A stretch of 64,000 nucleotides of DNA, taken from the NCBI GenBank assembly GCA_021298215.1, contig JAJTEE010000002.1, forward strand, positions 62,001-126,000, read 5' to 3'. The notes below the pieces were generated by a model. It was given only the letters and a program-made list of their open reading frames with translations. It was not told the origin of the DNA and made no database searches. This document shows positions 2,048 through 19,692 of this stretch, piece by piece. The stretch comes from Alphaproteobacteria bacterium (lineage in GTDB: Bacteria > Pseudomonadota > Alphaproteobacteria > Paracaedibacterales > CAITNM01). Both the position numbers and the translations under genes were made by a program. The stretch's first letter is position 1; the number at the start of each line of letters is the position of its first letter.

Positions 2048-2661
2048 GATAAAGAAAAATTTTTTAGCAATTGCATCCCATGTTTCTGACTTTTTTCTGG
2101 ATGAAATTGCACAGCATAAACATTATTATCTGCAATAATTGAAGGAAAATCATAGCCATGTTGAGTGGTAGATAGAACAATATTTTGTTGATTAGTGACA
2201 AAATGATAAGAGTGAACAAAATAAAATCGATGATCTTCATCAATTTCGCTTAACAAGGAAGAAGAACTCAAAGCATTGACTTGATTCCATCCCATATGAG
2301 GAATGCGAATATTATTATTTTCTATATTAAATTTTTTCACATCCATATCAAGTATGCCAAGGCCTTTTAAGTTTCCTTCTTCGCTAGATTTTCCTAATAT
2401 TTGAGCCCCTATGCATATACCTAAAATTGGCTTATTATTCTGCCATGCTGTTAAAATGATTTGGTCTAATCCTTTACTTTTTAATTTCTCAATAAACGGA
2501 TCAAAAGCCCCCACACCAGGAATAATAATTTTATCGTATTCTGTAACGTTATCTTCATGTTCAATAACTTTGTAGGGAATTGCATTCATTTTTAAAATGT
2601 TAATTATGGGTATGATATTGCCATACCCAGAATAAATAATGGCAACGGTAGGCTTTTTCAT
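2041..2661 (-). CDS. hisH: HisH-like glutamine amidotransferase
   Basis: Class I glutamine amidotransferase of 206 residues that hydrolyses glutamine and delivers ammonia to its HisF-like partner. The catalytic triad is visible: C83 in GICIGAQ, with H187 and E189 in QFHPEKS. The oxyanion-strand motif IPGVGAF is near residues 47-53. It starts inside the asnB stop (4-nt overlap) and overlaps hisF. As with hisF, the context points to surface-sugar amidation and not histidine synthesis. Confidence 0.9.
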   Translation of the reverse strand: MKKPTVAIIYSGYGNIIPIINILKMNAIPYKVIEHEDNVTEYDKIIIPGVGAFDPFIEKLKSKGLDQIILTAWQNNKPILGICIGAQILGKSSEEGNLKGLGILDMDVKKFNIENNNIRIPHMGWNQVNALSSSSLLSEIDEDHRFYFVHSYHFVTNQQNIVLSTTQHGYDFPSIIADNNVYAVQFHPEKSQKHGMQLLKNFSLSC

Positions 2662-4532: not shown

Positions 4533-4539
4533 GCTAAAA

Positions 4540-5187
4540 CTAAGTAATATAACGCTCTGCTAGCTCTAAGTCTTTAGGCGTATCAATTTCATACGCATCA
4601 AATACGAAACTATTTAAAGGTAAATATTTGTATAATTGAGAAAAAACATCAGCTAATTTTTCATTGCTTGAAAAAAGCACATTCTTGAAATAACCTAATC
4701 CTAGCCACTCGTGCTCATGCTTAATTTTTCTTGTAAAATCAATCACTTGACCTTTATCATTCATTTCAACAAATACGCTATCTTCGGATTTAGTTTTTGT
4801 GATCCCTATAATATCCTCAGAAGAAGCAGATGCCTTTTCTAAGAAAGATAGGAATTCTTTTTTATGTAAATAAATATCTCCATCTAAAAAAATGTAGGGC
4901 CCCTTTATATACCTTAAAGCCAACTGTAAGCTAAACAATGTGCTTGTATGTGCATAATCATGATTCATGACAAAAATAACATCTTTCCTAATGCTATTAA
5001 TATGATTAATCATTTCTTCAGCTCTAAATCCAACAATTACATATATGTTTTCTATTTCTTGTAAAAGATCTAATTGATATTCAATAAGGGTTTTTTCATG
5101 AATTTTAATAAGGGGTTTGGGCATATCAAATCCCAATCTCTTCCCCATGCCAGCTGCTGCTATAACAGCGTTTTTAATAGTCTGCAT
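4540..5187 (-). CDS. LicC-like sugar/choline-phosphate nucleotidyltransferase
   Basis: NTP-transferase fold of 215 residues. The signature AAGMGKRLG is at 10-19 with KPL at 24-26, and the metal site is LDGDI (D102, D104). Size and the DGDI motif resemble LicC-type CTP:phosphocholine cytidylyltransferases and other small cytidylyltransferases that activate a phospho-alcohol. It overlaps the preceding HAD phosphatase gene by 28 nt, so the two are probably translated together. A TagB/F-like phosphotransferase two genes upstream could use a CDP-activated product. The substrate is not determined by the sequence. Confidence 0.7.
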   Translation of the reverse strand: MQTIKNAVIAAAGMGKRLGFDMPKPLIKIHEKTLIEYQLDLLQEIENIYVIVGFRAEEMINHINSIRKDVIFVMNHDYAHTSTLFSLQLALRYIKGPYIFLDGDIYLHKKEFLSFLEKASASSEDIIGITKTKSEDSVFVEMNDKGQVIDFTRKIKHEHEWLGLGYFKNVLFSSNEKLADVFSQLYKYLPLNSFVFDAYEIDTPKDLELAERYIT

Positions 5188-5762
5188 AATGTATTCTCGT
5201 TATTAATTACCAAATCACACAATTCTAAAGCTGTTCTAACTGGTGGATGCGTTGCTCCATATGCAATCGCTATATCTGCAGCTTCAAACATTGGAATATC
5301 ATTCATTCCTTCTCCTACCGCCACAACCCTCTGAAATTTCTTTCTTATCTCATTTACTGCATCTGCTTTATTTAATATTTTTTCTATGCCTATCACTTCA
5401 TCTGCTTTTATTTTTGCCGTTGAGGTAAATGCTTGCACACCAATTTTTTTTATGAGCTCATTTACCCATACATCTAAATTACCGGTAACGATGAAAAAAT
5501 TATCAGGATGCTTTTTCATCAGCTCACAAATATTTTCGTACAAAGGAATAGATCTTAGAGATTCTCTTACACTTTCTGCGGAAAATTCTTTCAACAATCT
5601 TACTCTCAGTTTGAAAGAACTTTCGAAAGGAATAAAACCTTTAATCGTAGCATTTGTTAACGTTTCTATTTCTTCATGTATCTCTAAATGCTTAGCAATG
5701 CGCGGCAAAACTTCTTGACGTGTAACTGTACCATCAAGATCTAAACAGATAGCAGTATTCAT
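5160..5762 (-). CDS. HAD-superfamily phosphatase (SerB-like)
   Basis: A 200-residue HAD phosphatase with motif I DLDGT (8-12), motif II threonine in IVTGN (T93) and motif IV GEGMND (150-155). The cap between residues 15 and 80 is helical, as in phosphoserine phosphatases. It overlaps the methyltransferase gene upstream by 4 nt and the nucleotidyltransferase gene downstream by 28 nt. In this place it could remove phosphate from a precursor or process an activated alcohol or sugar. I cannot tell the substrate. Confidence 0.75.
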   Translation of the reverse strand: MNTAICLDLDGTVTRQEVLPRIAKHLEIHEEIETLTNATIKGFIPFESSFKLRVRLLKEFSAESVRESLRSIPLYENICELMKKHPDNFFIVTGNLDVWVNELIKKIGVQAFTSTAKIKADEVIGIEKILNKADAVNEIRKKFQRVVAVGEGMNDIPMFEAADIAIAYGATHPPVRTALELCDLVINNENTLCRLLKTLL

Positions 5763-6490
5763 CTTATTCTCTCTAAATAGAAATATTTTTGGATCGTTTC
5801 AGCACGGTTATTTAATTTTAAATCTTTATACATGTAATCCCTTTTAGCAACTTTGAATCCATTTACAATTAAAGGATTCAAAAAATTTAAAAGTTCTGCT
5901 TCGGTCCTATAAACTGCATTATAATAAGTTCCAAGCTCTTGAGAATAATGATCAATTAAAGAAAGTTTTTCATTTAGTACAGATACAGGTTCTCTTAAAT
6001 AAATTCTGCATTCTTCATTGCACAAAGTTAGTATTTGCTGAATTAGCTTACTGACATCCTCGTCATTCAAATAAATTAAAAGGCCTGAAATTACAATAAA
6101 ATCATATTGTGTTTCGCAAATATTTTCTATTTTATGAAGTTCTGTAACAGAACTTACGTAAAATTTATATTGCGTTCCTAATCCTCTTTCTGAAGCCAAC
6201 TTTACTAAATTTTCTGAGAAATCTACACCGACATAATTTTCTACATTTTTAAAAAGATCCGCTAATCTTCCATTTCCGCAGCCTAAATCTAAAACATCAT
6301 TTACCTGTACATCATAAGTTAAACTCAGCAATATTTCTTTTTCTGCCATATCTCTTTCAGAAGCAATGTTGGGGTCTTTTTGAAGCATGGTTGAATTAAC
6401 ACCTTGCGCATCACAAGCTCGGCTATCAAAGAAATTTTTTACATTTGAATATGCGATTTTTTTATCCATATTTATTTGTTCCACATTCAT
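5759..6490 (-). CDS. Class I SAM-dependent methyltransferase
   Basis: 243 residues with SAM motif I DLGCGNGR at 68-75 and the acidic end of strand beta-2 in YVGVDFSE. Strand beta-4 is probably FIVISGLLIYL. The N-terminal 50 residues are helical and polar, giving no sign of membrane attachment. It is followed directly by the HAD gene (4-nt overlap) and abuts the TagB/F-like gene. Methylation of a sugar or lipid-linked glycan is inferred only from context. Confidence 0.72.
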   Translation of the reverse strand: MNVEQINMDKKIAYSNVKNFFDSRACDAQGVNSTMLQKDPNIASERDMAEKEILLSLTYDVQVNDVLDLGCGNGRLADLFKNVENYVGVDFSENLVKLASERGLGTQYKFYVSSVTELHKIENICETQYDFIVISGLLIYLNDEDVSKLIQQILTLCNEECRIYLREPVSVLNEKLSLIDHYSQELGTYYNAVYRTEAELLNFLNPLIVNGFKVAKRDYMYKDLKLNNRAETIQKYFYLERIR

Positions 6491-7816
6491 TTAATTAACA
6501 TTTAGCAAATCATTCTCTATCAAATCAGCAGCCTGTTGACTAGAACCACGTATCATCTCGATGAGAGCGTTTCTTTTATCATAGAGATGATCATGATCTG
6601 CTAAAATTATATTTTTCATAAAATCATAAATATCTTCTGAGCAATAGGCTTTATAAAAGCTATTCACTAAAAGATTACCTATCTTATTATAGGGTGAAGA
6701 GTCCTGACGGCACAAAAGAAGCAAAGGCTTGTCAAATAAAACGTATTCTGCAAGGAAAGATACACTATCGGTAATAAGAGCATCAGATATTGCAAAATAT
6801 TCAAAATAATCTGCCCCATCATAAAAGCAAAAATTACTACGCTTTGACCAACCACTTAGAAGTTTTTCATACTCCTTTAGCTGCAATACGTTAGCTCTTA
6901 AAAGAGCGTTTTTCAAGCTTGGATGAGGTTTAAATACGAAATAAACATTCGGAAAAGTTATTAGCAATTTTTCAATGTGTTCATAATATTTATCAAATGT
7001 TCCATAACATGTGACAGAAGAAAGATTTCCCACTGACCAGTGAGGAGCAATAATAACGATTTTATTGAAATTAGATTTTATATTTTTAATTTCATTTGCT
7101 ACCTTGATATTATCCAAGAGATCAAATTTAGTATAACCAGTCGTAATAACTTTTGCTTCCTTATCACAGCGCGCAGCATAATTTTTATTATGAAAATCAG
7201 TTTCACAGTATACTCTATAAGCTAAATTATGGACCTCTTGATGATATTGGGTTTCAGGTTGTTCAGCTAATAAAAATCCATATGGGATGTAACACACATG
7301 TGCAAAATTGTTTACATAAGCGCATCTGTGAAAAATATGATAGTCTTCCATATAAGGACAGGTGTAAAATACATAATGCGGATTTAACGTTTGCAAATCT
7401 AACACTTCTTCTATTTCATTTTCGGAAGAAATTTTAACCACTCCATCAATGCTAATAATTCCCTTTTTTAAAAAATATTTCTTAAGTTCTGAATAAGAAT
7501 CTTCATTCCATTTTTTACAAAAATATTGAGGAGCTATAATCACATGGCATTTGAATTTGCCGTTATTTAATAATTTATTTATTACTGAATCAAATACGGA
7601 GAAAAGGCTTACTTCTTGCACGAGAAATACCACCACTATTTTCTCATTTTTCTTTGATTTAATGTGCATTTGTTTTAGCTGGTTATTAATTTTTTGCAGA
7701 TGCCCGAATTCATTTTGAAGAAATGCCAAATCTCTTTCTAAGCCAAAATAATATTTGGGAGAAAAAATAAAAGCTATATATTTTTTAAGCTTTAAAACAA
7801 TTGTTTTCAAAAACAT
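6491..7816 (-). CDS. CDP-glycerol glycerophosphotransferase-like (TagB/TagF family)
   Basis: 441 residues. The C-terminal half resembles the GT-B fold of CDP-glycerol/ribitol phosphotransferases: IVIIAPHWSV, then VYFVFKPHPSL, then DALITDSVSFLAEY and FDKPLLLL, in the order typical of the family. The N-terminal 80 residues are basic with a hydrophobic stretch and probably sit at the membrane. The family makes polyol-phosphate chains or adds single phospho-alcohols to glycans. With the LicC-like nucleotidyltransferase it suggests phospho-alcohol decoration of the surface glycan. Confidence 0.65.
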   Translation of the reverse strand: MFLKTIVLKLKKYIAFIFSPKYYFGLERDLAFLQNEFGHLQKINNQLKQMHIKSKKNEKIVVVFLVQEVSLFSVFDSVINKLLNNGKFKCHVIIAPQYFCKKWNEDSYSELKKYFLKKGIISIDGVVKISSENEIEEVLDLQTLNPHYVFYTCPYMEDYHIFHRCAYVNNFAHVCYIPYGFLLAEQPETQYHQEVHNLAYRVYCETDFHNKNYAARCDKEAKVITTGYTKFDLLDNIKVANEIKNIKSNFNKIVIIAPHWSVGNLSSVTCYGTFDKYYEHIEKLLITFPNVYFVFKPHPSLKNALLRANVLQLKEYEKLLSGWSKRSNFCFYDGADYFEYFAISDALITDSVSFLAEYVLFDKPLLLLCRQDSSPYNKIGNLLVNSFYKAYCSEDIYDFMKNIILADHDHLYDKRNALIEMIRGSSQQAADLIENDLLNVN

Positions 7817-7822
7817 GCTTTA

Positions 7823-9145
7823 TTACATTCTCTCAAAAAACTCTCCCATAATTTGCTGTTCACGTTTATATATTTTTTCTTCGTCAAATAACAATTTATA
7901 TCTTTTATAAGCTCGTTCTCCTCGTTTTTTAGCTTCTATGGGATCGTTAATAGCTTCTAAAATTTGAGCGCAAATTTGATCACTGTTAGGATAATCCGCA
8001 AAATAGCCGCTATACCCATCTGTTAAGAGCTCATGATGCCATTCTATATCAAAGCAAACGATGGCTTTTTTCAACATAGCAGCTTCTAATAAAGCAAATC
8101 CTCCCAAAGGTATAAGAGCAACATCTGAATGAAATATATAGGACATTAACTGATGGGAAGGTATAAAACCGGGCATAAAAATTCTTTCAGTCACTCCTGA
8201 ATCTTTAACCAAGATCTCAATTTCAGCAGCCATAGGCCCATACCCTATAATACATAAGCCCAAATCTTGATCAGCAGCTAAAGCTTTAAATGCTCCTTTC
8301 AGAGCAAAAGGTAATTTTTTTTCATAAGAAAAACGTGACCATGTAATAATTGTTTTCTTTGTTTTAGGAAACTTATCTAAATCATTCTGAGAAATAATAT
8401 GAGATTTATTAATAGGTTTGACGCATGGATAGATTCTTGTGCGCCTAATCTTTTTTGCATCTGCACCATTACATAAAGCAAAATCTCCACAATGATTATT
8501 ATACGCCATTACTAAATCGGCTTGATGGAAAGCAAGCTCTGCAATTACTTTTTCTAAAACATAAAGTATAAATTTTTTCATCTTTCCAAATTTAAAAGGA
8601 TATTCAGACCGACTTAAATCTCCATTTCCCATCACTGCAATAATAAGGGGAATTTTTTTAAATATTCTAAGCAAAGCAGCTAAAAATAATTGATCTGAAG
8701 GTGCATAAGCAGAAATTGCTGTTATATTTTGGTTATCAATTAAATTAACAACAAAAAAATAACATTTTAAAAAATTTATAACTCTCTTGGTTTTTTTAAA
8801 AATTTCTTGATCATCTAATAATTTTTGGACAACACCTTTTACATTCTTTGTTAATTGATAAACTTCTGATTCAAATTCTCCGGCATAATATACAAAGGTT
8901 TCCTGATAACCAGGCCTTAGAAATTGCTTTTGAAAATATTCATGCCATTCTTTCATGTATTTTTTATCTTCAATTGAGGGCGGCTTGATAGGCTTTCCAC
9001 TTGCTAAAAATAAAATGGCCATTTTTTCTTTACTGTAAGTTTTTCTCTTTTTATAAAAAAGCAAAATAAAAGGTACTAACCCACAGAGAAAAAAAAATAA
9101 TATTGAATCCGCGATACCGTGTAAAATATTTACTATTTTTTTCAT
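7823..9145 (-). CDS. GT4-type glycosyltransferase, membrane-anchored
   Basis: 440 residues, beginning with a hydrophobic segment (about residues 10-32, LFFFLCGLVPFILLF) that probably anchors the protein to the inner membrane. The C-terminal GT-B domain shows TIITWSRFSYEK, GPMAAEIE, FMPGFIP and SDVALIPLGGFALLEAAM, with the acceptor-side glutamate of EX7E in the last stretch. It lies 6 nt after the zinc-ribbon methyltransferase gene. The sugar transferred is unknown. Confidence 0.78.
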   Translation of the reverse strand: MKKIVNILHGIADSILFFFLCGLVPFILLFYKKRKTYSKEKMAILFLASGKPIKPPSIEDKKYMKEWHEYFQKQFLRPGYQETFVYYAGEFESEVYQLTKNVKGVVQKLLDDQEIFKKTKRVINFLKCYFFVVNLIDNQNITAISAYAPSDQLFLAALLRIFKKIPLIIAVMGNGDLSRSEYPFKFGKMKKFILYVLEKVIAELAFHQADLVMAYNNHCGDFALCNGADAKKIRRTRIYPCVKPINKSHIISQNDLDKFPKTKKTIITWSRFSYEKKLPFALKGAFKALAADQDLGLCIIGYGPMAAEIEILVKDSGVTERIFMPGFIPSHQLMSYIFHSDVALIPLGGFALLEAAMLKKAIVCFDIEWHHELLTDGYSGYFADYPNSDQICAQILEAINDPIEAKKRGERAYKRYKLLFDEEKIYKREQQIMGEFFERM

Positions 9146-9149
9146 AATG

Positions 9150-10058
9150 TTATTTATTATACTGAAAAACTTGATAATACAAATGCCTATCTCTCAATCT
9201 AAAAGAAGAAAATGCTGTATTAGGAAATTGCTTAAGGATTTTTCTCACAGCCTTTATCGCATAAAAATTTTTCAAAATTGAATTCAATAAACCAACATCG
9301 TGCGCGAGAACATATTCTGTATATTCATCCTGATACCATGATTCGCGCAATAAAGAAAAATCTTTTTGAAAGTATTTTTTTAATGCTTCTTTTTGCCTTA
9401 AGACTAGGTAACTGTAGTCATCAAATTGTGTTCTTATCATTACTCCAATAGTAGGAGCTACATTTCCTGATAATATAACAACAGCGTTATCATTTAGATA
9501 AGGCTTAAGCTCAGAAATAAGTTTAGACATATCCAAACAAAACATTGAGCATGCAACCATAAAAACATAATCAAATTTTTGCCTTATTTTATTTTCATTA
9601 AATACCTTCGCCAGACTGTCTTTATTAAAGTCAAAACGAACAGCATTTAACTTTAAGTCATCGTTAGCAAAATTTACAGCTTTTGTATTGATTTCTGTCA
9701 TTAATGCATAATTACAGAAAGGCTTAAAATTTTTCAAAAAATGTCCGCTACCTCCACTGATATCAAGTATATTCTTATGCTCTAAATTATTTATGTAGCT
9801 AGAAAAATTCCTCATAAACAATTCGTAATTTATTCTTGAAACTTTTTCATGCTCCTTTGAGGCAAAATAATCATAAATATTATCTTCATTTAAATCTTTT
9901 GATTTCTTAAGATGAGGAAAAGGCAGCATTGACAATGGGTAAATAGCACGTTCAGCGGAAAAAGCTGCACCACACTTATTACACATAAACCATTTTCTCT
10001 TATATGTAATAATACTTCCTAAGTTTTTTGAATCATTGCATTCGCAGCATTTTATCAT
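9150..10058 (-). CDS. SAM-dependent methyltransferase with N-terminal zinc ribbon
   Basis: 302 residues. The N terminus has cysteines at 4, 5 and 7 and CNKC at 26-29, consistent with a small zinc ribbon. The methyltransferase motif I ILDISGGSGHFL covers about 97-108. This arrangement (zinc ribbon, then methyltransferase) occurs in C-methyltransferases acting on nucleotide-linked deoxysugars and in many O-antigen methyltransferases. The start overlaps the broken acetyltransferase gene by 4 nt. Confidence 0.68.
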   Translation of the reverse strand: MIKCCECNDSKNLGSIITYKRKWFMCNKCGAAFSAERAIYPLSMLPFPHLKKSKDLNEDNIYDYFASKEHEKVSRINYELFMRNFSSYINNLEHKNILDISGGSGHFLKNFKPFCNYALMTEINTKAVNFANDDLKLNAVRFDFNKDSLAKVFNENKIRQKFDYVFMVACSMFCLDMSKLISELKPYLNDNAVVILSGNVAPTIGVMIRTQFDDYSYLVLRQKEALKKYFQKDFSLLRESWYQDEYTEYVLAHDVGLLNSILKNFYAIKAVRKILKQFPNTAFSSFRLRDRHLYYQVFQYNK

Positions 10059-10655
10059 TTTTTAATCTCTTTTCTTATGGTTGGCAAATAATCCCCGTAC
10101 GCATGATCATTTTTTTCAAAATATTCTAAAGTAATTTTCTCATTTTTTATCACGACTTTCCCTATTAATTTTCCGGGTGAACCACCTATTATGGAATAGT
10201 CCTCCGTATTTTTATTTACAAAAGTATTAGCACCAATATTAATGCCAGCTTTTATGACTGATTGAGAGCCAATATAAGTGTTATTGCCAATCTTTACAGC
10301 AGCTTTATAAACGCTTTCCATCCCGCCAGAAAACACTCTCATAAAAGTATCATGAGTATATATATGAACGCCGGCAGATAATTCATAAAAATCACCAATT
10401 TTAATGCCCCCACCCGAACCATCTAAAATTACATAAGGCCCTATTCAAACTTTCTTGCCGGCTTGTACAGATCCGAACAGTAAGGCGCTATTATAAATAC
10501 TAGAATCTTCACCAAACCCTAATCGTTTTACTCGCTCAAATCGATCAAATAATCCATCCTGAAATGGCAAGCTTCTATCGTAAGTATCGCGTAAATATTT
10601 CTCTTGCTGAGCATATATTTCTATCAATAAGTTTTTTTAAGCTTTCGTTATTCAT
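10055..10655 (-). pseudogene. Hexapeptide-repeat sugar acetyltransferase, broken twice
   Basis: Left-handed beta-helix acyltransferase whose parts lie in adjacent frames. An ATG at 10655 reads MNNESLK, then a run of seven T on the plus strand (10632-10638) shifts the frame; removing one base gives MNNESLKNLLIEIYAQQ. The next 60 codons end at an in-frame TGA (10445-10447) between GKKV and IGPYVILDG. The family has Trp there (VWIG), so TGG to TGA is the obvious change. After it the same frame runs through VKIGNNTYIGSQSVIKAG and IIGGSPGKL to 10055. A TTG start after the shift could still give a short N-terminal piece. TGA is a normal stop in this genome, so I call it a pseudogene. Confidence 0.82.
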
Positions 10656-10684
10656 AGGTACACAAATCTTGTAAGATCAAACTT

Positions 10685-11647
10685 TTAATTGATGGAACGA
10701 TAATACTTAGCTGTTTCTAATATACCTTCATCTAAATCTACTGTAGCTTCAAAATCTAAAAATGATTTAGCTTTGGATACATCAGGAACTCGTAATTCGA
10801 TATCAGCCATTTCCTTTCCAGAAAACTTGATAATAGATTTAGAATTTAAGTTTTTACAAACCGCGTTTGCTAAACCATAAATTGTTGTAACGGCCCTTGC
10901 ATTTCCAATATTAAAGGTTTCACCGATTGCTTTTGGGTTAGTCATACATCGCATTAATCCATCAACCATATCATCTACATAACACCAAGCTCTAATTTGC
11001 GTACCATCACCGTGAATAAAAATATCTTCATTTTTAATAGCTTTTTGAATAAATATTGAAAGAGCTCCTTCTCCTACCTGGCCTGGACCATAAACATTAA
11101 AAGGGCGCAAAACAGTACAAGGTGTCCCAAATTCTTTAAAATAGGCTAAACCTAAATGTTCATCTGCAAGCTTTGACACCGCATATGTCCATCTTGCTTC
11201 TCCAACAGCACCAATAACAGCACTATGACTTTCAGTACTTTGGAAAGCCTGGCTTCCAAAAATTTCGCTAGTAGAAAATAACACAACTCTTTCACATGGA
11301 AGACTTAACTCTTTTATTATATTTAATAGATTGGCGGTCCCCAGGATGTTAACTCTTAAAGTATTTGTGGGACTTTTAATCACTGAATCAATTCCAGCAA
11401 TAGCAGCACAATGAACAACATGTGTAGGAGAAAATTCTGCCATAGCCTTTTTTAAACTATCGGAATCAAGTATGTCTCCTTTAATAATGGTTATATTTCC
11501 ATTTTCATTTTTATCACGAAATTTTAGAGCATCGCGCAAAAAATTATCGTAAATACATATTTGGTTATCTTTAGATAGTGTTTGGGCCAACAAGCTCCCC
11601 ACAAACCCAGCACCACCTGTTATAAAAATTCTTTTGTTATTTAGCAT
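10685..11647 (-). CDS. NAD-dependent sugar epimerase/dehydratase
   Basis: Extended short-chain dehydrogenase of 320 residues. The nucleotide-binding motif TGGAGFVG is at 10-17, the catalytic YxxxK is Y155/K159, and the active-site serine/threonine is in LFSTSEIFG. These features fit UDP-sugar 4-epimerases and 4,6-dehydratases acting on nucleotide sugars. It overlaps the following acetyltransferase gene (upstream in transcription) by 11 nt. Product identity (galactose-, GalNAc- or deoxysugar-type) cannot be read from the motifs alone. Confidence 0.82.
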   Translation of the reverse strand: MLNNKRIFITGGAGFVGSLLAQTLSKDNQICIYDNFLRDALKFRDKNENGNITIIKGDILDSDSLKKAMAEFSPTHVVHCAAIAGIDSVIKSPTNTLRVNILGTANLLNIIKELSLPCERVVLFSTSEIFGSQAFQSTESHSAVIGAVGEARWTYAVSKLADEHLGLAYFKEFGTPCTVLRPFNVYGPGQVGEGALSIFIQKAIKNEDIFIHGDGTQIRAWCYVDDMVDGLMRCMTNPKAIGETFNIGNARAVTTIYGLANAVCKNLNSKSIIKFSGKEMADIELRVPDVSKAKSFLDFEATVDLDEGILETAKYYRSIN

Positions 11648-12155
11648 CTGTTTTCCTTTTTAAAACCGCTGGAATTCCCGCTATTATCGAGTTTTTTGCA
11701 AAATTAGAATCTTCTAAAAGAACGCTATTAGCGGCAATTATGCAGTTGTCACTTATCCGAACCCCCAATAATATCTTGGAATCAAAACCTAGCCATACGT
11801 TATTTCCTATAATAATTTCTTTTGCCCTGATGCCTTGCAAACAGAAAGGCTTATCTGGATCTTCTATAATGTGGGAAGTCGTACATATTTTTGATCCAGC
11901 ACCAATCAATGCATAATCCCCAACAAGTAACCCCTTTAATCCTACCAAAATAGAAGATCTACCTATGTAACTACAACTTCCTATTGAAATATCGCTGGGA
12001 TACTTAAACTGAACCTTTGCACAGATGCGAGTCCCCTTACCTATTTTCTTAAAAAATAGCCGATAAAAAAATGGTCGTATTTTATCAAAAATACCGAACT
12101 CGTGATTCATTAATAACGCTTGAACACAATAAAATAACCCGTCACTAATTTTCAT
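11637..12155 (-). CDS. Hexapeptide-repeat acetyltransferase (WbbJ/maltose acetyltransferase type)
   Basis: 172 residues with beta-helix repeats (GKGTRICAKV, SIGSCSYIG, VGDYALIGAGSKI, IIIGNNVWLGFDSKIL, ISDNCIIAANSVL) and a terminal IAGIPAVLKR. It lacks a membrane segment. Such enzymes O-acetylate glycans or N-acetylate amino sugars. The start overlaps the SDR gene by 4 nt. Unlike its downstream relative at 10.1-10.6 kb it is intact. Confidence 0.82.
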   Translation of the reverse strand: MKISDGLFYCVQALLMNHEFGIFDKIRPFFYRLFFKKIGKGTRICAKVQFKYPSDISIGSCSYIGRSSILVGLKGLLVGDYALIGAGSKICTTSHIIEDPDKPFCLQGIRAKEIIIGNNVWLGFDSKILLGVRISDNCIIAANSVLLEDSNFAKNSIIAGIPAVLKRKTDAK

Positions 12156-12937
12156 TGAAACACATCTTTAAATTTACCAGATCTATGCCAGTTGAATGCA
12201 TAAGCTACAGAAGTACAATTATTTGATTTTTGATCTGCCTGTTGAAAAAATGGCTCTTTCCCCAAAAATTTTGCCAGTTTTTTAGATAAATCATAAATTG
12301 AAACTTTGTAAGATGAGGATAAGTTATGAATTGCTTTAGAGTTATTATTACATAAAAAATCTTGCAATATGCATTCTGCAATATCTTTTACATGAGATAA
12401 AGAAAGTATAGGACCACCATTGCTATTCAGCTTTATAGGCATTTCATGCTTGATCTTGTAAAGCAAACCAGGCACAAGTCTAGGAACCTCTTGACCAGGA
12501 CCATAAGAAAAAAATAATCTTAATATGTTAAGGTCTTTTTTCCATTTAGCTATAAACAAATTTTCTTGATTTAATTTTGAAACTCCGTAGTTTGTTTTAG
12601 GAAGGCATTTTAAGCCTACATACCTATCTTGATCATATTCACCATAAACTGCACCTGATGAAAGAGCTATTATTTTTTTTACATTTTTGCTATTTAAAAA
12701 ATCACATAACATGCTAACAGGATCTTCGTTCACTATTCTTAGCTGTTCAATGTCCTCACAAATTTTTCCGGCAGCAAAAATTACTTGCTCAATATTATCC
12801 GGAAAAATTTTCCAAGTATTAGGATCACATAAATTGAACTGCTCAGAGTTAAAGCAAATATGCTTATATCGATTTTCCAACATTGTTTGTGAAATTGCTC
12901 TCCCAATAAAACCATTACCAATGATTACAATAGACAT
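12152..12937 (-). CDS. NAD(P)-dependent nucleotide-sugar reductase/epimerase (extended SDR)
   Basis: 261 residues; the glycine-rich loop GNGFIG is at 7-12, the catalytic pair is Y117/K121 in NYGVSK, and the active-site serines are in ALSSGAVYG. It is short for a UDP-galactose epimerase and closer in size to RmlD-like or 4-keto-sugar reductases. It overlaps both neighbours (13 nt with the aminotransferase gene, 4 nt with the acetyltransferase gene), so it belongs to the nucleotide-sugar block. Confidence 0.75.
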   Translation of the reverse strand: MSIVIIGNGFIGRAISQTMLENRYKHICFNSEQFNLCDPNTWKIFPDNIEQVIFAAGKICEDIEQLRIVNEDPVSMLCDFLNSKNVKKIIALSSGAVYGEYDQDRYVGLKCLPKTNYGVSKLNQENLFIAKWKKDLNILRLFFSYGPGQEVPRLVPGLLYKIKHEMPIKLNSNGGPILSLSHVKDIAECILQDFLCNNNSKAIHNLSSSYKVSIYDLSKKLAKFLGKEPFFQQADQKSNNCTSVAYAFNWHRSGKFKDVFQ

Positions 12938-14043
12938 CGTTTTATTGTAGCTGCATAGTCTTGTGAAAATTTCACATATCCGCTCATAGGCAAGCTTAAC
13001 ACTTCATTTGCTAATGACTCACACACAGGAAGAACGCCTTCGTTAGCAGTTGGATAATGCTTATAAGCCGTTTGTAGATGAAGCGGTTTCACATAATACA
13101 CCATGGTTGGAATACCTGCATCTTTAAGCTCAGCAATTAGCTTATCTCTATCAATATGTTTTGGTAGTCGTATCGTGTATTGCGCCCAAGCAGACGTTGC
13201 GCCCTTCATAACAAAAGGGACTCGTACCACATCTTTTAACGCATCATCATAAGCATCAGCAGTTTTTTGACGCGCAATTAATTCCTCAGGAAATATTTTT
13301 AATTTTTCCAACAAAATAGCAGCCTGAATAGTATCCAAGCGACCATTCATTCCAATGCGCACGTTATCGTATTTATCAGATCCTTGACCATGCACGCGAA
13401 GCGATTTAATAATTGCAGCAAGCTCATCACTATTGGTAAAAATAGCTCCTCCATCCCCATAACACCCTAAAGGCTTTGCTGGAAAAAAGCTTGTTGTTGC
13501 CATATCACCAATATTTCCAACTTTATAATTTTTATAAGCTGCACCAAAACTTTGAGCACCATCAGCCATAACCCACAAATTATGGGCATCAGCAATTTGT
13601 TGGATTGCATCATAATCTGCTGGTTGCCCGAACAAATCAACCGGAATAATTCCAACAGGATTAAACCCTAATTTCCTAGCTGTTTGAATCCCTTGTGCTA
13701 GACTTTTTGGATCAATATTATATGTGTCTTCCAATGAATCAATAAAAATTGGCGTTGCCCCCATCCAAGCAACCACTTCAGCAGTGGCTGCAAACGTAAA
13801 CGAAGGCACCAAAATAGCATCATTTGGTTTTACATTTTTAGCCATCAACCCTAAGCCCAATGCATCTGTACCATTAGCGCAGGTAATTGCATGTTTAACC
13901 CCACAAAATTCCGCTAACTGCTTTTCAAATTCGTAGACTTCTGGCCCCATAATATAAGTGCCATGATCCAGAACACGCTTAATAGCCGCGTCAACTTGAG
14001 GGCGAATTTGTTCTTGTTGGGCTTTTAAATCAATAAATTGCAT
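12925..14043 (-). CDS. wbpE: DegT/DnrJ-type sugar aminotransferase, WbpE-like
   Basis: PLP-dependent nucleotide-sugar aminotransferase of 372 residues. The Schiff-base lysine is K190 in SFFPAKPLGCYGDGG, and the DGAQSFGA motif (161-168) contacts the cofactor. This pattern is strongly WbpE-like; WbpE transaminates UDP-3-keto-GlcNAcA to UDP-GlcNAc3NA. The fused WbpB-WbpD enzyme encoded immediately upstream supplies the 3-keto substrate and acetylates the product, which makes the WbpE role likely. Codons here look less AT-rich than in the glycosyltransferase genes further downstream (by eye). Confidence 0.87.
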   Translation of the reverse strand: MQFIDLKAQQEQIRPQVDAAIKRVLDHGTYIMGPEVYEFEKQLAEFCGVKHAITCANGTDALGLGLMAKNVKPNDAILVPSFTFAATAEVVAWMGATPIFIDSLEDTYNIDPKSLAQGIQTARKLGFNPVGIIPVDLFGQPADYDAIQQIADAHNLWVMADGAQSFGAAYKNYKVGNIGDMATTSFFPAKPLGCYGDGGAIFTNSDELAAIIKSLRVHGQGSDKYDNVRIGMNGRLDTIQAAILLEKLKIFPEELIARQKTADAYDDALKDVVRVPFVMKGATSAWAQYTIRLPKHIDRDKLIAELKDAGIPTMVYYVKPLHLQTAYKHYPTANEGVLPVCESLANEVLSLPMSGYVKFSQDYAATIKRCLL

Positions 14044-14058
14044 TGGCCTTACCTTATA

Positions 14059-15633
14059 TCAAGCTATTTTGTTATTAGTATTACTTTTATCATTTTCAAT
14101 CAGATTTCCATCAACGATTTTGTATTGGCGTCTTTCTCGTGGGCAAATAAAATCTTCTCCAAGTTTCTCACCAGCATGACTTACCCACCCCATTTGTTTT
14201 GCAGGATTACCAACCATCACTGCGTGAGGCTTGACATCTTTTGTTATCACGGCACCAGCACCAATTAAGCTGTAAGCACCTAAACGATTACCACATACTA
14301 TTGTTGCGTTCGCCCCTATTGTCACACCACGTTCTACATAAGTAGGACGAAACTCATCTTTACGTTCTACCTCTGCGCGTGGGTTATGAACATTAGTAAA
14401 CACGCAAGAAGGACCACAAAAAACACCATCTTCTAACACAACCCCCTTGTAAAGACTAACGTTATTTTGCACTTTACAACGATTACCCACTATAACATCC
14501 GGACCAATCATAACGTTTTGACCGATAACGCAGTCCTCACCAATTTTTGTGCCTTTAATAATATGAGAGAAATGCCAAACTTTTGTGCCATTTCCTATTT
14601 CACATCCTTCATCAACAATGGCGGTTTCATGCACAAAGTAAGGCAGAATCTCATCATTCAAGACAATATTTGTGGCTGAATACAAGGATTTTTGTGCCGC
14701 ATCTAATACCCGAAGCACTCGCAATCCTTCAAAACCATCTGTACGCGGTTTTTGATTATTTTTAATGCTTTCAATAAAATGCTGACATTCAAGCTTTAAA
14801 GGCTCTTCAACTGCCAATGGCACATGTATAACATCTGCTTTTTCAGGTATTGGCAGGCCATCAACCCAGGTAACCTGATGAGGGTAAATTTTTAGTTTTT
14901 CCCCCCAAGGTAAACTATCGTCAAACACAGCCATGCCACGATCACCAACAACGACTAATTTTTGCTCCTTATAAGGGTGCAACCATGAGACAAAAATGTG
15001 TGCTTGCACGCCATTTTTAAAATGCATATGTGTAGTTGTTACATCATGAATGCGTGGGTTAAGATGACAAGCACCAGTAGCGTAAAGCCTCTCTGGCAAA
15101 TCCCCAACCAAGCCCAAAATCATAGAAATATCGTGTGGGGCGAAACTCCACAGAATATTCTCCTCATTGCGAAATTTTCCAAGATTAAGACGATTGGAAT
15201 AAATATATTGAAGACGTCCAAGATTACCTTTAGCAATTAGATTTTTAAGCTCTTGAAATGCGGGATGGTATTGTAATAAATGCCCAACCATAAGCTTACG
15301 GTCGACTTCAACGGATAGATCGCATAATTTTTGAGCCTCATCGATTCTTAAAGAAAGGGGCTTTTCCACAAATACATGTTTACCAGATTTAAGAACTCTT
15401 TGAGTCAAATCAAAATGTAGAGCTGCAGGTGCCGCCACAACAACGCCATCACAGTCACTTTTTAAAACCTGGTCAAAAGTTAGAACTTGCACCCCATAAG
15501 TTTGAGAGGCTTTTTCTGCGAGCTCCTCACTTGCGTCACAGACGGAATGCAATACTTCAAGTTCTGCAAAATTACGAACAAGATTTTTACCCCAGTATCC
15601 ACAACCAATTACCGCTATTTTAACGCTGACCAT
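14059..15633 (-). CDS. wbpB-wbpD: Fused UDP-GlcNAcA 3-dehydrogenase / 3-N-acetyltransferase (WbpB-WbpD)
   Basis: One 524-residue polypeptide with two enzymes. Residues 1 to about 320 are a Gfo/Idh/MocA oxidoreductase: the Rossmann motif IGCGYWGKNL lies near 8-18, and HVFVEKPLS carries the catalytic lysine. From about 330 there is a complete WbpD-type left-handed beta-helix acetyltransferase (VHETAIVDEG, VWHFSHI, GQNVMIGPDV, GANATIVCG, MVGNPAKQMGW). In Pseudomonas these are separate proteins in UDP-2,3-diacetamido-uronic acid synthesis. No stop or frameshift separates the halves, and the linker is short. WbpE follows 15 nt downstream. Confidence 0.9.
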   Translation of the reverse strand: MVSVKIAVIGCGYWGKNLVRNFAELEVLHSVCDASEELAEKASQTYGVQVLTFDQVLKSDCDGVVVAAPAALHFDLTQRVLKSGKHVFVEKPLSLRIDEAQKLCDLSVEVDRKLMVGHLLQYHPAFQELKNLIAKGNLGRLQYIYSNRLNLGKFRNEENILWSFAPHDISMILGLVGDLPERLYATGACHLNPRIHDVTTTHMHFKNGVQAHIFVSWLHPYKEQKLVVVGDRGMAVFDDSLPWGEKLKIYPHQVTWVDGLPIPEKADVIHVPLAVEEPLKLECQHFIESIKNNQKPRTDGFEGLRVLRVLDAAQKSLYSATNIVLNDEILPYFVHETAIVDEGCEIGNGTKVWHFSHIIKGTKIGEDCVIGQNVMIGPDVIVGNRCKVQNNVSLYKGVVLEDGVFCGPSCVFTNVHNPRAEVERKDEFRPTYVERGVTIGANATIVCGNRLGAYSLIGAGAVITKDVKPHAVMVGNPAKQMGWVSHAGEKLGEDFICPRERRQYKIVDGNLIENDKSNTNNKIA

Positions 15634-15636
15634 AAA

Positions 15637-17388
15637 TTACACCATCTTGCTTCTTTCGAGTTCATTATATTGAGTGACTTCTTTTATTTGCCCTTTTTCC
15701 ATCACAATAATTCGATCGCAATCTTTTAAAGTTGTTATCCTATGAGCGATCATTATTACAGTACGATTTTTGCTAACAGAATTAATAGTTTCCATCAGCT
15801 TTTCCTCTGTTTGATTGTCAAGTGCAGAGGTGGCCTCATCAAAAACCAAAACATCTGGATTATGATACAAGGAGCGCGCAATAGCAATTCGTTGACGTTC
15901 TCCTCCAGATAAGCGAATACCTCGTTCGCCTACGATTGTTTCCGCCCCTTTCGGCAAGCTATCAATAAGTTTACGCAACTGCACCGCATTTATCACAAAA
16001 TTTAGCCGCTCTTCGTTTATTTCTTTTTCTCCAAAAGCAATATTTGCCGCGATTGTATCATCGATTAAATAAATGCTTTGGGAAACATATCCAATTTTTT
16101 GATGCCACTGATAAGATCTTACAGTGAATTTGCCATCAACAAGCGCTTCTCCTTTATAAGGCTTTAAAAGACCTAAAATAATATCAACTAATGTAGATTT
16201 TCCTGAACCAGTTTTCCCAACTATTCCTATACTTTCACCTTTTTTTATACAAAGAGAAATATTTTGCAAGGCATCTTTTTCCATATTAGCGTATCGAAAG
16301 AAAATATCTTTTAGCTCAATTATTTCGTTAAATTGAAACTCAGGTATATTGAGGTAATTTTGCTTAGCAGCCGTCTCATTATACTCCTGATATACCCGAA
16401 CAATGGAAGGAACACTGGATTTCAAAGTATTTAATTGATTAATCATCCTATTTAAGCCAGGCATTAAACGGAATCCAACGTAGAGATATCCACCTAATAC
16501 CCCAATCATCTGCAGTGGAGTACCATGAACTAAGCACAAAATTGCGATAACCAAAACGAAAATTCCAACAAATAACGTTTCAATAACTAGCCTTGGCATG
16601 GCATTTGTCGCTGTTTGCAATGCTTGAGCATGAGACCTTTTTTGTGAATAATACTGATAAACATCGATAAAAATCTGACGCTTTCCAAGCAATACAATAT
16701 CTTTAAAACCATGAAAAAATTGCGCTAAATTTTGACCACATAACAAGGAAGATTCTTGCAAATGCTTGCCCCATTTATAAAATTTTGGCATCAATCCTTT
16801 TACTAGACCCCACCCGCAAATCAGCCCCACCAAAAAAATCACGAAGAATAATGAAGGGTTCATAAGCACGACCATAATAACCAAAAATAAAAAAACCATG
16901 CTCTCAGACATAATCATAGCAACTGACATCATCCCTGCAGAAAACATCAGCTCAGCATCCCCCCCCACAACAGCAGAACCAAGTGAGGAATTCCGCGTCA
17001 GATAAAATGCATAATCTAGTTCAGCATATCTTTCCAATAACCTGCCCTTAAATTGATAATTCATTTTTTGCACAGAAAAATTTTGATAGAATGCTTCCAC
17101 AGCCGCAATTATGTTTTTAATCAAATACAACACACCCACACTAATAGCCAAGTAAAACACACTGCGTTGCGCTGATAAATCATCAGCTAAACCTATCATT
17201 GCTAAATATTTTTCCCCAAGTTCTGGCTGATTTAACACTTGAACAAAAACAACAATGATAGAGGCAGTCGCAACTTCGAAAAGAGATGAGCAAAGAGCAA
17301 AAGCTATAATTCCAAGCCATTTTACTTTTTCTTCTTTTGTCAGTAAACAGCGCATTTTTTGAATTGCAGACAATATTGAAGATGACAT
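15637..17388 (-). CDS. ABC transporter, fused permease and ATPase (lipid-linked glycan flippase type)
   Basis: About 583 residues with six predicted membrane segments in the first 320, then an ATPase domain: Walker A GKTGSGKST near 391-399, signature LSGGE near 493, Walker B LVFDEATSALD. The domain layout matches MsbA/PglK-like exporters. Its place at the head of the glycan operon suggests export of lipid-linked oligosaccharide. An upstream ATG at 17400 is in frame but lies inside the ops-like repeat. The ATG at 17388 has a GGAAAA ribosome site at good spacing and matches the spacing of the fkbM start behind the other repeat copy, so I chose it. Confidence 0.82.
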   Translation of the reverse strand: MSSSILSAIQKMRCLLTKEEKVKWLGIIAFALCSSLFEVATASIIVVFVQVLNQPELGEKYLAMIGLADDLSAQRSVFYLAISVGVLYLIKNIIAAVEAFYQNFSVQKMNYQFKGRLLERYAELDYAFYLTRNSSLGSAVVGGDAELMFSAGMMSVAMIMSESMVFLFLVIMVVLMNPSLFFVIFLVGLICGWGLVKGLMPKFYKWGKHLQESSLLCGQNLAQFFHGFKDIVLLGKRQIFIDVYQYYSQKRSHAQALQTATNAMPRLVIETLFVGIFVLVIAILCLVHGTPLQMIGVLGGYLYVGFRLMPGLNRMINQLNTLKSSVPSIVRVYQEYNETAAKQNYLNIPEFQFNEIIELKDIFFRYANMEKDALQNISLCIKKGESIGIVGKTGSGKSTLVDIILGLLKPYKGEALVDGKFTVRSYQWHQKIGYVSQSIYLIDDTIAANIAFGEKEINEERLNFVINAVQLRKLIDSLPKGAETIVGERGIRLSGGERQRIAIARSLYHNPDVLVFDEATSALDNQTEEKLMETINSVSKNRTVIMIAHRITTLKDCDRIIVMEKGQIKEVTQYNELERSKMV

Positions 17389-17401
17389 CTTATTTTCCAT
17401 A

Positions 17402-17435
17402 GCTACCGCAGTCTGGGTGAAATCAACGAGACTGC
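17402..17435 (-). promoter_or_regulatory. ops-like pause element with upstream hairpin, copy 1
   Basis: On the minus strand GCGGTAGC (17402-17409) directly follows and overlaps a hairpin with 7-bp arms GCAGTCT/AGACTGC (17408-17435). GCGGTAGC is an exact 8-base match to the core of the E. coli ops element GGCGGTAGCGT, where RfaH is loaded on paused RNA polymerase. It lies 14 nt before the chosen start of the ABC transporter gene. The match is seen directly; function is inferred from the rfaH-like gene just upstream. Confidence 0.7.
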
Positions 17436-17476
17436 AAAATTTTTACTTGGGCACTCACGCCCAGAAAACTTAAACT

Positions 17477-17533
17477 CTATGCCGCCTCAACAACATAAGC
17501 CGGAAGAGCCGTTTTCATTTCTCTTCCTAAAAT
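17477..17533 (-). pseudogene. 3' remnant of a second rfaH-like gene
   Basis: The last 18 codons and TAG stop of an rfaH-like gene, reading LGREMKTALPAYVVEAA. Seventeen residues are identical to the intact gene at 18599-19102, and the three coding differences across them are all at third positions and silent. Upstream homology stops abruptly near 17533. The silent-only divergence suggests this tail came from a once functional copy and not from a recent local copying error. Confidence 0.78.
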
Positions 17534-17599
17534 TTCGCCTAACATCTTCATCTAACGGCTGTTTCATAGAACAAAATAACCTACACCACGCAATTAACA

Positions 17600-18511
17600 T
17601 TACAATTTCATTTCATTTCTTGACAAAACAACATCGCCTACGGCTAAAACTTTAAGATCATCGCAAGAGATAGGGACAAGTAATGGCTCTCCAGCAGATT
17701 TTTTTCCTACACGCCACACTTTAAAACCATTCCTTTTGAATATGTCAGCAAGTGCATTGGGATCCGTTCCTTGATTTTGAAGATGTTGATGAATCCATTT
17801 AATCATCAAAATGATATCTGGATTATCTTCAATAAGTCTTTTTGCACCAGCAATAATTTTACCTTCGCAACCTTCCGCGTCAATTTTAAGCAGATCAATT
17901 TTTTGGCGACCAATTTCATCATCAAGCTGAACAATCTGGATTTTCACAGATTGAGAATCTGGAGATGATACAAGGTGGCCACCTCCAATATTTAGCTCAC
18001 CAAAAGTCAAATACGTTTCACCTTTAATATCGCCTGCCGCCTTTTCATAAACAGAAATTACAGATCCCAATTGATTCATACCTATAGACATCTTTAAGTA
18101 TTTTGAAACAGCAGGATTAGCTTCAAAAGCGTATACTTTCCCTTGAGGTCCAACCATTTTCGCCATGCGTAGAGTATGCACACCAAAATTTGCACCTACT
18201 TCAATAATATTGAAATTTTTCTTCACAAGCTTTTCAAGAACCCTTGTTTCATTACTATCCCAATGCCCTGCCAAACGTACAAACCAGCAAACACATCTAT
18301 CATGCTTATTAACCACAATAGGCGTGCCGTCATCCAAAGATGAAATCAAATGGTCAGCATCAATATCTTTTCCATCCCGAAAATACTTTATATAAATATC
18401 AGCAAAAGCAGAACGAATAAAATAATCTTTGACGGCAGAAATATTTGTCATCATAGAAAACGCAACAACTACACAACCAACACCCAAAATGCCTAGAAAT
18501 TTACCCTTCAT
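17600..18511 (-). CDS. FkbM-family methyltransferase with N-terminal membrane segment
   Basis: 303 residues. The N terminus (about 3-22, GILGVGCVVVAFSMM) is hydrophobic and could be a signal anchor. The FkbM-type SAM site is EVGANFG at 104-110, followed by VYAFEANP and LLKIDAEGCE, the hallmark order of the family. FkbM proteins commonly O-methylate sugars in glycan loci. An AGGAG ribosome site precedes the ATG and follows the ops-like element directly. The gene sits between two direct repeats, as if inserted into the leader region of the operon. Confidence 0.82.
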   Translation of the reverse strand: MKGKFLGILGVGCVVVAFSMMTNISAVKDYFIRSAFADIYIKYFRDGKDIDADHLISSLDDGTPIVVNKHDRCVCWFVRLAGHWDSNETRVLEKLVKKNFNIIEVGANFGVHTLRMAKMVGPQGKVYAFEANPAVSKYLKMSIGMNQLGSVISVYEKAAGDIKGETYLTFGELNIGGGHLVSSPDSQSVKIQIVQLDDEIGRQKIDLLKIDAEGCEGKIIAGAKRLIEDNPDIILMIKWIHQHLQNQGTDPNALADIFKRNGFKVWRVGKKSAGEPLLVPISCDDLKVLAVGDVVLSRNEMKL

Positions 18512-18521
18512 TTTTTCTCCT

Positions 18522-18655
18522 ATAGCTACCGCAGTCTGGGTGAAATCACCGAGACTGCAAAATTTTTACTTGGGTACTCACGCCCAGAAAACTTAATTCT
18601 ATGCCGCCTCAACAACATAAGCTGGAAGAGCTGTTTTCATTTCTCTTCCCAAAAA
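18522..18655 (-). repeat. Direct repeat copy 2 (rfaH 3' end, hairpins, ops-like element)
   Basis: Partner of 17398-17533. This copy includes the real 3' end of the intact rfaH-like gene and ends in the ops-like core just before the fkbM ribosome-binding site. Confidence 0.93.
18525..18558 (-). promoter_or_regulatory. ops-like pause element with upstream hairpin, copy 2
   Basis: GCGGTAGC on the minus strand (18525-18532) overlaps the 3' arm of a hairpin spanning 18531-18558. The stem has seven pairs (GCAGTCT/AGACTGC), one C/C mismatch, then GGTG/CACC, so it is stronger than in copy 1, where one inner pair is lost. It lies between the rfaH-like stop and the fkbM start, as expected for a loading site at the operon head. 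Confidence 0.72.
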
Positions 18656-19102
18656 ATTAAGCAATAAATGAACGCGACCTTTATCATCTAAGCATTCAAA
18701 TATTGCCTCTTGATCTTCAAAAACCCCTTCACAAACGCGCACCCTATCTCCTTTAATAAAAGACACCAAGCTTGCTATAGGAACAATCCCATTTTCCGTT
18801 TCTTGCCCCTTCAATTCATCGATCACTCTACAGGGAACTCGAGTTGGTTTCAAATCATTCGTCATTAATAAATGAGAAACACCCCTAGCTCCGTTAATGT
18901 TTCGCCATTGAGCACATTCTATATTCATCCCCACAAATATATAGCGCGGGAAAAGAGGCGCTACAACCTCTTCAATCTTCCTAGCATGTCGTCGTTTTTT
19001 TTTAAACTTCGGAGCATACACTTCATATCCCATATTCAACAAGTTCTGTTGCGCAATAGACTCCTTTAAAGGCTGAGTATACACAACATGCCAAGTAATC
19101 AT
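18599..19102 (-). CDS. rfaH: RfaH-like transcription antiterminator (NusG family)
   Basis: 167 residues with an N-terminal NGN domain (about 1-100; WHVVYTQP at 4-11, then PLFPRYIFVGM) and a C-terminal KOW-type domain (GDRVRVCEGVFEDQEA at about 117-132). RfaH-type NusG paralogues bind RNA polymerase paused at ops elements and suppress termination in long polysaccharide operons. Two ops-like elements lie immediately downstream and the gene heads a 19-kb glycan operon, so the RfaH role is favoured over housekeeping NusG. It overlaps the MarR-type gene by 4 nt (ATGA). Confidence 0.85.
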   Translation of the reverse strand: MITWHVVYTQPLKESIAQQNLLNMGYEVYAPKFKKKRRHARKIEEVVAPLFPRYIFVGMNIECAQWRNINGARGVSHLLMTNDLKPTRVPCRVIDELKGQETENGIVPIASLVSFIKGDRVRVCEGVFEDQEAIFECLDDKGRVHLLLNFLGREMKTALPAYVVEAA

Positions 19103-19692
19103 GATCTAGCCCTGGAAATATGTAACAACACAGGAGAAAATAGGCGCGAATCCTCAACCCTTTCTTTGATATCGTCATAAGTTTTTTGAGGATTCACTAC
19201 ATCCGTTATTATTATCGCATCATAATTTTCAAAATCTGTAGCGGCGTTTGTTATCTCAACAGATATAGCAAGACTATTTGCCACCAATTGTGCAATATCC
19301 GACAAATCACCCGCCCCAACAAGAGCTATTTTTTTCCACCGTTGCTTCTCGCACTTCTCAAAAATTTCTTCACACTGAGCACGAGCATCTCTAAAAAATG
19401 CCATAGAACGTGATAAATAATCTGTTACCATAAGGCTTTTTTCAGAAAAGCCCTGTGGCGTCAAAAAATATGTGATGCGCCGCGGAGAAATCTGCGAGGC
19501 CCTTACCCACCCTTTAGTAATGCAGCGCTTTAAATACTGATTCATCAAACCCAAAGCAATACCAAGCTCACCGGCTAAACCTCTCTGTGTAAACGAAGGA
19601 TTACGCTCTATTTCACTCAAAAGCTGAACCATAACCTTTTGTTCTGTTTGTTCGCGAGTATTTTGAAAAGTAGGCATATAGTTAGGGTACAC
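19099..19692 (-). CDS. Winged-helix regulator, MarR/EPS-associated type
   Basis: About 197 residues. Residues 20-80 form a winged helix (NPSFTQRGLAGELGIALG, the recognition helix near MNQYLKRC, then the wing) like the EPS-associated MarR-type regulators at the start of capsule and O-antigen loci. From about 116 there is a Rossmann-like half (KKIALVGAGDLSDIAQLVA) of unknown ligand. The listed start is GTG; an in-frame ATG at 19677 is an alternative and neither has a clear ribosome site. The 12-bp palindrome at the promoter suggests autoregulation. Confidence 0.78.
   Translation of the reverse strand: MYPNYMPTFQNTREQTEQKVMVQLLSEIERNPSFTQRGLAGELGIALGLMNQYLKRCITKGWVRASQISPRRITYFLTPQGFSEKSLMVTDYLSRSMAFFRDARAQCEEIFEKCEKQRWKKIALVGAGDLSDIAQLVANSLAISVEITNAATDFENYDAIIITDVVNPQKTYDDIKERVEDSRLFSPVLLHISRARS

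Follow-up and report, generated by a model that had tools for sequence, protein, structure and literature searches.

In E. coli, residues K10, H20, R23 and R73 of RfaH touch the ops site, in which T6 is flipped out, and the ops bases G4, G5, A7 and G8 are required for recruitment of RfaH and not for pausing (PMC5995543). Replacement of E48 by alanine releases the protein from its requirement for ops (PMC13015549). Alphaproteobacteria hold 18% of RfaH genes, and glycan and helix-turn-helix (HTH) neighbours of RfaH clusters are known; how the homologues other than that of E. coli reach their targets was stated to be unknown (PMC7593976). RfaH homologues encoded in cis have been argued not to need ops (PMC13015549), and a proposal that they load while being made is cited in the same paper. 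No earlier description of an ops-type element for alphaproteobacterial RfaH was found in the literature searched, which misses most subscription papers, and a search for the literal 8-mer GCGGTAGC returned unrelated papers only. Here we describe a hairpin fused to an ops-type core that recurs beside rfaH-like genes, or elsewhere in the genomes that carry them, over much of the Alphaproteobacteria, and that is likely to be their loading site.

The glycan locus and its RfaH-like protein

The window, that is, the whole stretch of 64,000 nucleotides that was analysed, comes from a genome of 1.53 Mb in 36 contigs of a Holosporales-type alphaproteobacterium. The nearest named relatives of its RfaH-like protein belong to Holospora and Odyssella thessalonicensis, and positions 26476-28002 encode an NTP/NDP exchange transporter (TIGR00769, 503 bits) of the type found in intracellular energy parasites; because of both observations, an intracellular Holosporales-type bacterium is a fair reading. 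The genes of interest lie on the minus strand, in the order MarR_EPS-like regulator, RfaH-like gene, FkbM methyltransferase, PglK-like ABC transporter and further glycan genes:

19099..19692, minus strand: leading gene of the operon, a winged-helix regulator of MarR_EPS-like type (TIGR04176, 62 bits; cut-off 88)
18599..19102, minus strand: RfaH-like NusG paralogue of 167 aa (TIGR01955, 124 bits; AF2 model matched by Foldseek; one of two NusG-family genes in the genome)
18520..18559, minus strand: hairpin-ops element, copy 1, between rfaH and the FkbM gene, with a GCAGTCT..AGACTGC hairpin followed by GCGGTAGCTATAGG (covariance model R1, 45.5 bits; hairpin z -6.8)
18525..18532, minus strand: ops core GCGGTAGC of copy 1 (sequence match)
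17600..18511, minus strand: FkbM-family methyltransferase gene, between both element copies (TIGR01444, 85 bits; Pfam FkbM domain)
17480..17554, minus strand: residual 3' end of rfaH (residues 143-167), duplicated along with element copy 2 (alignment; tblastn piece with 72% identity, G000:C2:79480-79554)
17397..17436, minus strand: hairpin-ops element, copy 2, immediately 5' of the ABC transporter gene (covariance model R1, 44.4 bits)
17402..17409, minus strand: ops core GCGGTAGC of copy 2 (sequence match)
15637..17400, minus strand: PglK/MsbA-like glycan ABC transporter (NF050066, 319 bits)
133..15633, minus strand: remaining in-window glycan block (Gfo/Idh-acyltransferase fusion, DegT aminotransferase, epimerases, acyltransferases, methyltransferases, and AsnB/HisH/HisF/WbuX-type sugar amidation genes)

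The first-pass annotation had placed an RfaH-like NusG paralogue at the head of a 19-kb glycan operon. The first part held, RfaH being the best model for the protein, with the MarR_EPS-like gene preceding it; the length was too short, since the same-strand block crosses the left edge of the window to contig position 53,393 (G000:C2:53393) and totals about 28 kb. The true start of the ABC transporter is likely to be Met5 (17388), downstream of the element, because the proteins of relatives begin there (MSSPS/VSTPS). A MarR_EPS-type gene stands immediately upstream of rfaH in 75 of the 99 loci examined, and both genes are nearly always a few nucleotides apart (distance taken to the start of the profile match). 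The C-terminal half of regulator homologues weakly resembles NeuD/PglB nucleotide-sugar domains (E~0.04, two homologues only), a similarity that leaves it possible that the regulator senses a nucleotide sugar.

Against NCBIfam models, the window protein scored 124 bits with RfaH (TIGR01955, E 3.9e-36), above UpxY (63), NusG (53) and LoaP (NF033641, 52.5). The TIGR01955 cut-off of 144.5 was reached neither by this protein nor by any of the 91 positive genomes of the class, and that of the LoaP model (125) was also unmet. The genome contains exactly two NusG-family genes, the other coding for a 183-aa protein of the housekeeping type; the window protein is therefore not the housekeeping or the sole NusG, but a second and distinct member of the family. 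Its identity to E. coli RfaH is 31%, and of the ops-contact residues K10, H20, R23 and R73 it keeps R73 alone, with Q10, N20 and N23 at the other positions. Among cis-encoded proteins Q10 is found in 31/44, H or N occupies position 20, and T72 is almost invariant. In E. coli RfaH, autoinhibition rests on an E48-R138 bridge and an alpha-helical C-terminal domain; the window protein has alanine in place of E48 and keeps R138. AF2 predicted a beta KOW domain with modest confidence (pLDDT 74, pTM 0.57; other models 58-65). Foldseek with this model gave as top match chain P of 8phk, the fully recruited RfaH in an ops-paused complex (E 3.4e-11), with NusG structures close behind, and the overall NGN plus KOW fold of RfaH on that complex was met. 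From the alanine at position 48 and the predicted beta KOW, we infer with only modest confidence that the protein is not autoinhibited.

A hairpin fused to an ops-type core

Two copies of the E. coli ops core, each fused to a hairpin, had been noted just downstream of the rfaH-like gene. Both were confirmed, at 17402 and 18525, on the non-template strand of the operon leader as in ops, each with the hairpin directly 5' on the transcribed strand. The full element is a hairpin ending in CACCC-NNNN-TGCGGYAGC. The window core with its flank reads TGCGGTAGCTAT, and the 12-nt ops sequence GGCGGTAGCGTG with T11-G12 was not met. As evidence the bare 8-mer was rejected, its frequency being that of the background: at least two copies occurred in the window in 13/100 shuffles, and the whole genome holds 33 copies versus 29 of a reversed control pattern. 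The 18-mer CCAGACTGCGGTAGCTAT was found in the whole genome only at the two window sites, even allowing 3 mismatches, and the covariance model at E<=0.01 returned the same two sites only. Nor can the two copies count as independent evidence, since they go back to a single duplication around the FkbM gene (17397-18640), of a stretch of about 150 bp in which the final ~25 codons of rfaH are contained. Seven congeners have a single copy of the element and no FkbM gene there, with the ABC transporter directly next, which suggests as a possibility that the FkbM gene is cargo acquired through duplication or recombination at the element.

Conservation in relatives bearing the rfaH-like gene had been set beforehand as the test of the element, and it was passed. 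RGACTGCGGYAGCTATRG was found with zero mismatches 50-90 nt behind rfaH in 8/8 rfaH-positive genomes of the genus, versus 0/3 rfaH-negative ones (one of the three only 76% complete). Non-coding DNA around the element is poorly conserved in the genus; the element is kept, including the 5' arm GTCT.. that pairs with ..AGAC. Weak matches with 2 mismatches in congeners were considered as trans targets and left unsupported, having no hairpin context. The claim that GCGGTAGC itself is the element held only in part: GCGGCAGC replaces it in 5/8 of the rfaH-positive genus genomes and is found in many Holosporales. Key residues that serve ops contact and autoinhibition in E. coli are not conserved.

The 3' arm, CACCC-NNNN, stops at the T just before GCGG. 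In minimum-energy folds of 64 elements, 8.0 of 10 arm bases were paired, versus 5.2 with shuffled 5' sequence. When 3' arms were swapped among families they paired worse (observed 3.87, null 2.83, sd 0.15, P 2e-4), and the drop also held among arms other than GACT. In the model alignment 69% of cells were paired versus 63% in shuffles, and the covariation score was reached by 0/500 shuffles and stood above every slid control. The stem sequence is freely variable around a maintained pairing, and GCGG-AGC is constant, with the caveat that elements were gathered by that core. No U-tract follows the stem, and a terminator scan made no call at either window element. A search of the window against Rfam returned no relevant known RNA; the JUMPstart covariance model (RF01707) matched neither the window nor six alphaproteobacterial leaders, versus 55.2 bits for the E. 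coli waaQ leader used as control.

Distribution across the class and beyond

Genomes were called rfaH-positive at TIGR01955 E<1e-22, a threshold met by 91 of the 386 genomes of the class. The T-form CACCCNNNNTGCGGTAGC occurred genome-wide in 42/91 rfaH-positive versus 2/295 rfaH-negative genomes (Fisher p 3.6e-28). Since genomes are related, p-values overstate independence, and the family count is the safer figure. Neither of the two rfaH-negative exceptions (L245 and L246) has a glycan gene behind the site, which in L246 falls within a long reading frame. Of the 91 positive genomes, 37 lack an exact-pattern site in either form (T or C), and the GGCAGC form of the pattern was far less specific outside Holosporales, being present in 16 rfaH-negative genomes. 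The covariance model R1, run over 372 genomes, gave matches at E<=1e-4 in 51, 50 of them rfaH-positive, and these cover 30 of the 47 families that bear rfaH.

Positions were analysed in 103 loci drawn from the class sample, the congeners and the named relatives. In 48/103 of them GCGGYAGC stood in the 300 nt that follow rfaH, nearly always as CACCC-NNNN-TGCGGYAGC. For comparison, the antisense strand gave 2 such cases, the gene itself 1, the upstream side 1 and shuffled sequence 1.9; 37/103 loci were scored element-free. The median distance from the rfaH stop to GCGGYAGC is 75 nt, and in most element-bearing species the cis site lies 50-110 nt behind rfaH. The core corresponds to E. coli ops positions 2-9, and T11-G12 (NTG) are kept in 24/43 groups class-wide. 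Many Holosporales have C (GCGGCAGC; for example L038-L042) where E. coli ops has its flipped T6, and in 9/12 of the C-type loci the protein has H20 and R73 together. In family f54 (L118, L133, G171:C18:5995) the element, on the strand opposite to rfaH and some 1 kb upstream of it, heads a divergent gene block. Holospora obtusa (L064 10001-10700) has a broken rfaH frame with the element still there and a non-glycan gene behind it, and H. undulata (L058 10001-10492) has a second rfaH-like gene without an element.

In rfaH-positive genomes lacking a site right behind rfaH, sites were found before DegT aminotransferases, Polysacc_synt_2 dehydratases, an ABC transporter and a methyltransferase, some a few kb past rfaH on its own contig and others on different contigs. 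These positions suggest, as a possibility, that the element acts both distally in cis and in trans; the distal sites L239, L242 and L244 fall within predicted open frames and may be due to chance. A phylum-wide draw outside the training set gave five R1 matches with an adjacent rfaH (L251, L254, L256, L257 and L260). Two of them, L256 and L260, lie outside Alphaproteobacteria, where the element stands behind an rfaH-like gene in a single family of a different class within the phylum. The matches L253, L258 and L261 stand before glycan-type genes, and the other matches outside the class look like chance. No significant R1 match was found in the RfaH loci of Vibrio and Pseudomonas. In the protein tree, element-positive proteins are scattered over the whole alphaproteobacterial group, and because of this spread the element is probably old in the group. 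The first-pass annotation considered the system undescribed and assigned it to an apparent intracellular organism; alphaproteobacterial RfaH-like genes were already known, the putative loading element is new, and it is class-wide, not peculiar to one intracellular organism.

Proposed loading site, rival explanations and known systems

The sequence of the element, its conservation, the covariation of its arms, its co-occurrence with rfaH, its positions and its lack of a U-tract are shown by the analyses above. That it is the loading site of the RfaH-like protein encoded just upstream is likely; pausing, binding and antitermination are inferred, with no functional data, and to this extent the earlier reading as a cassette of regulator, antiterminator and loading site mostly held. 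What speaks against it is that 37 of the 91 rfaH-positive genomes and 37 of the 103 loci have no such site, that the ops-contact residues are incompletely kept, that Holosporales often have C at T6, and that the window protein scores below the TIGR01955 cut-off. In the proposed mechanism, RNA polymerase would transcribe the regulator gene, rfaH and next the element, where the GCGGYAGC core would act as an ops-type pause, exposed on the non-template strand and read by the N-terminal domain of RfaH. A hairpin of the nascent RNA would form behind the polymerase and strengthen the pause, give RfaH a second contact, or both. The last base of the 3' arm of the hairpin directly precedes GCGG and is about 10 nt from the RNA end of the equivalent E. 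coli pause; this spacing is about that of hairpin-stabilised pauses. Once loaded, RfaH would shut out NusG, block Rho and couple ribosomes, and the ~28-kb glycan operon would be transcribed to its end. Most element-bearing species would use the site in cis, and others a distal or trans site before glycan genes. We infer that a site just behind rfaH fits the proposal of loading during synthesis, but adds a sequence address that is absent from that proposal (PMC13015549). Hairpin-ops control would then be far wider than its E. coli textbook form, and it is likely to be older. A bolder reading, which we consider possible though somewhat less likely than not, is that the bipartite hairpin-plus-ops site represents the ancestral mode of RfaH recruitment: ops reading by a non-autoinhibited cis RfaH would have preceded autoinhibition and trans action, contrary to the current order, and the hairpin would later have become dispensable in gammaproteobacteria.

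The main rival, which remains possible and can be combined with ops reading, is that the RNA hairpin itself recruits the RfaH-like protein in the manner of LoaP, GCGGYAGC being merely a pause sequence or part of an RNA motif. In its favour, the element always comes with a covarying hairpin, several of the DNA-contact residues of E. coli are not conserved, and LoaP, itself a NusG paralogue, binds an RNA hairpin and depends on it (PMC12691694). Against it, the stem is free in sequence and GCGG-AGC is constant and identical to E. coli ops (again among elements gathered by the core), the recruitment-specific bases G4, G5, A7 and G8 (PMC5995543) are all kept, and the score with the LoaP model is far below that with RfaH.

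It is unlikely that the inverted repeat serves as operator DNA for the MarR_EPS-like regulator. MarR proteins bind palindromes, and the regulator gene commonly precedes rfaH (the 75/99 loci above); the site, however, lies within the operon, behind rfaH, its arms vary while pairing is kept, its loop lengths vary, and its invariant part, which is asymmetric, lies outside the palindrome. Moreover, L179, L180, L194 and L196 carry the element with no MarR-type gene recognised directly upstream. A stable hairpin past the gene end could point to an intrinsic terminator or attenuator ahead of the glycan genes, which is very unlikely given the missing U-tract, the negative scan at both elements and the location of GCGGYAGC after the stem. 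A chance 8-mer in a recent duplication, which would account for the background frequency of the bare 8-mer and for the two copies, is all but excluded by the class-wide data, position, strand and hairpin being kept in 8/8 congeners and about 30 families.

If the element is indeed the loading site, as we favour, these roughly 30 families with an rfaH-linked covarying element provide a ready natural set of putative loading sites, among which the core (T or C), the stem and the contact residues of the protein vary naturally. The evolutionary order of ops recognition and autoinhibition becomes directly testable, and the element offers a sequence handle to predict RfaH-controlled glycan operons of Alphaproteobacteria, whether in cis or distal, and also in intracellular members.

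Among known systems, UpxY of Bacteroides is likewise a NusG paralogue encoded by an early gene of a polysaccharide operon, but the window protein scored 63 bits with UpxY versus 124 with RfaH. LoaP and the dfn leader share with the present system a NusG paralogue and a leader hairpin; in contrast, the alphaproteobacterial protein is closer to RfaH, the hairpin is not conserved in sequence, an ops core is present and no terminator was seen nearby. The cis-encoded "monomorphic" RfaH homologues (PMC13015549) and the clusters CL2-CL8 (Wang 2020, PMC7593976) are similar in having rfaH in or beside a glycan operon, an HTH neighbour (CL4), a predicted NusG-like beta KOW and loss of ops-contact residues. 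They were described as ops-independent or as having an unknown recruitment, whereas the alphaproteobacterial cis site has an ops-type element. The RfaH/ops system of E. coli (waa, rfb, hly and tra leaders) shares the NusG paralogue, GCGGTAGC as ops positions 2-9 and a long glycan operon as target, and its T11-G12 are kept in over half of the alphaproteobacterial groups. It differs in that the alphaproteobacterial core is fused 3' of a covarying hairpin, which is not JUMPstart by Rfam, and the E. coli ops site gave only 8.2 bits with R1. Moreover, E. coli RfaH acts in trans and the alphaproteobacterial site is usually directly behind rfaH, in cis; the proteins lack E48 and mostly K10, and many Holosporales have C at T6. 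Because the protein stays below the TIGR01955 cut-off and keeps the contact residues only in part, we regard the alphaproteobacterial system as a variant of RfaH/ops.
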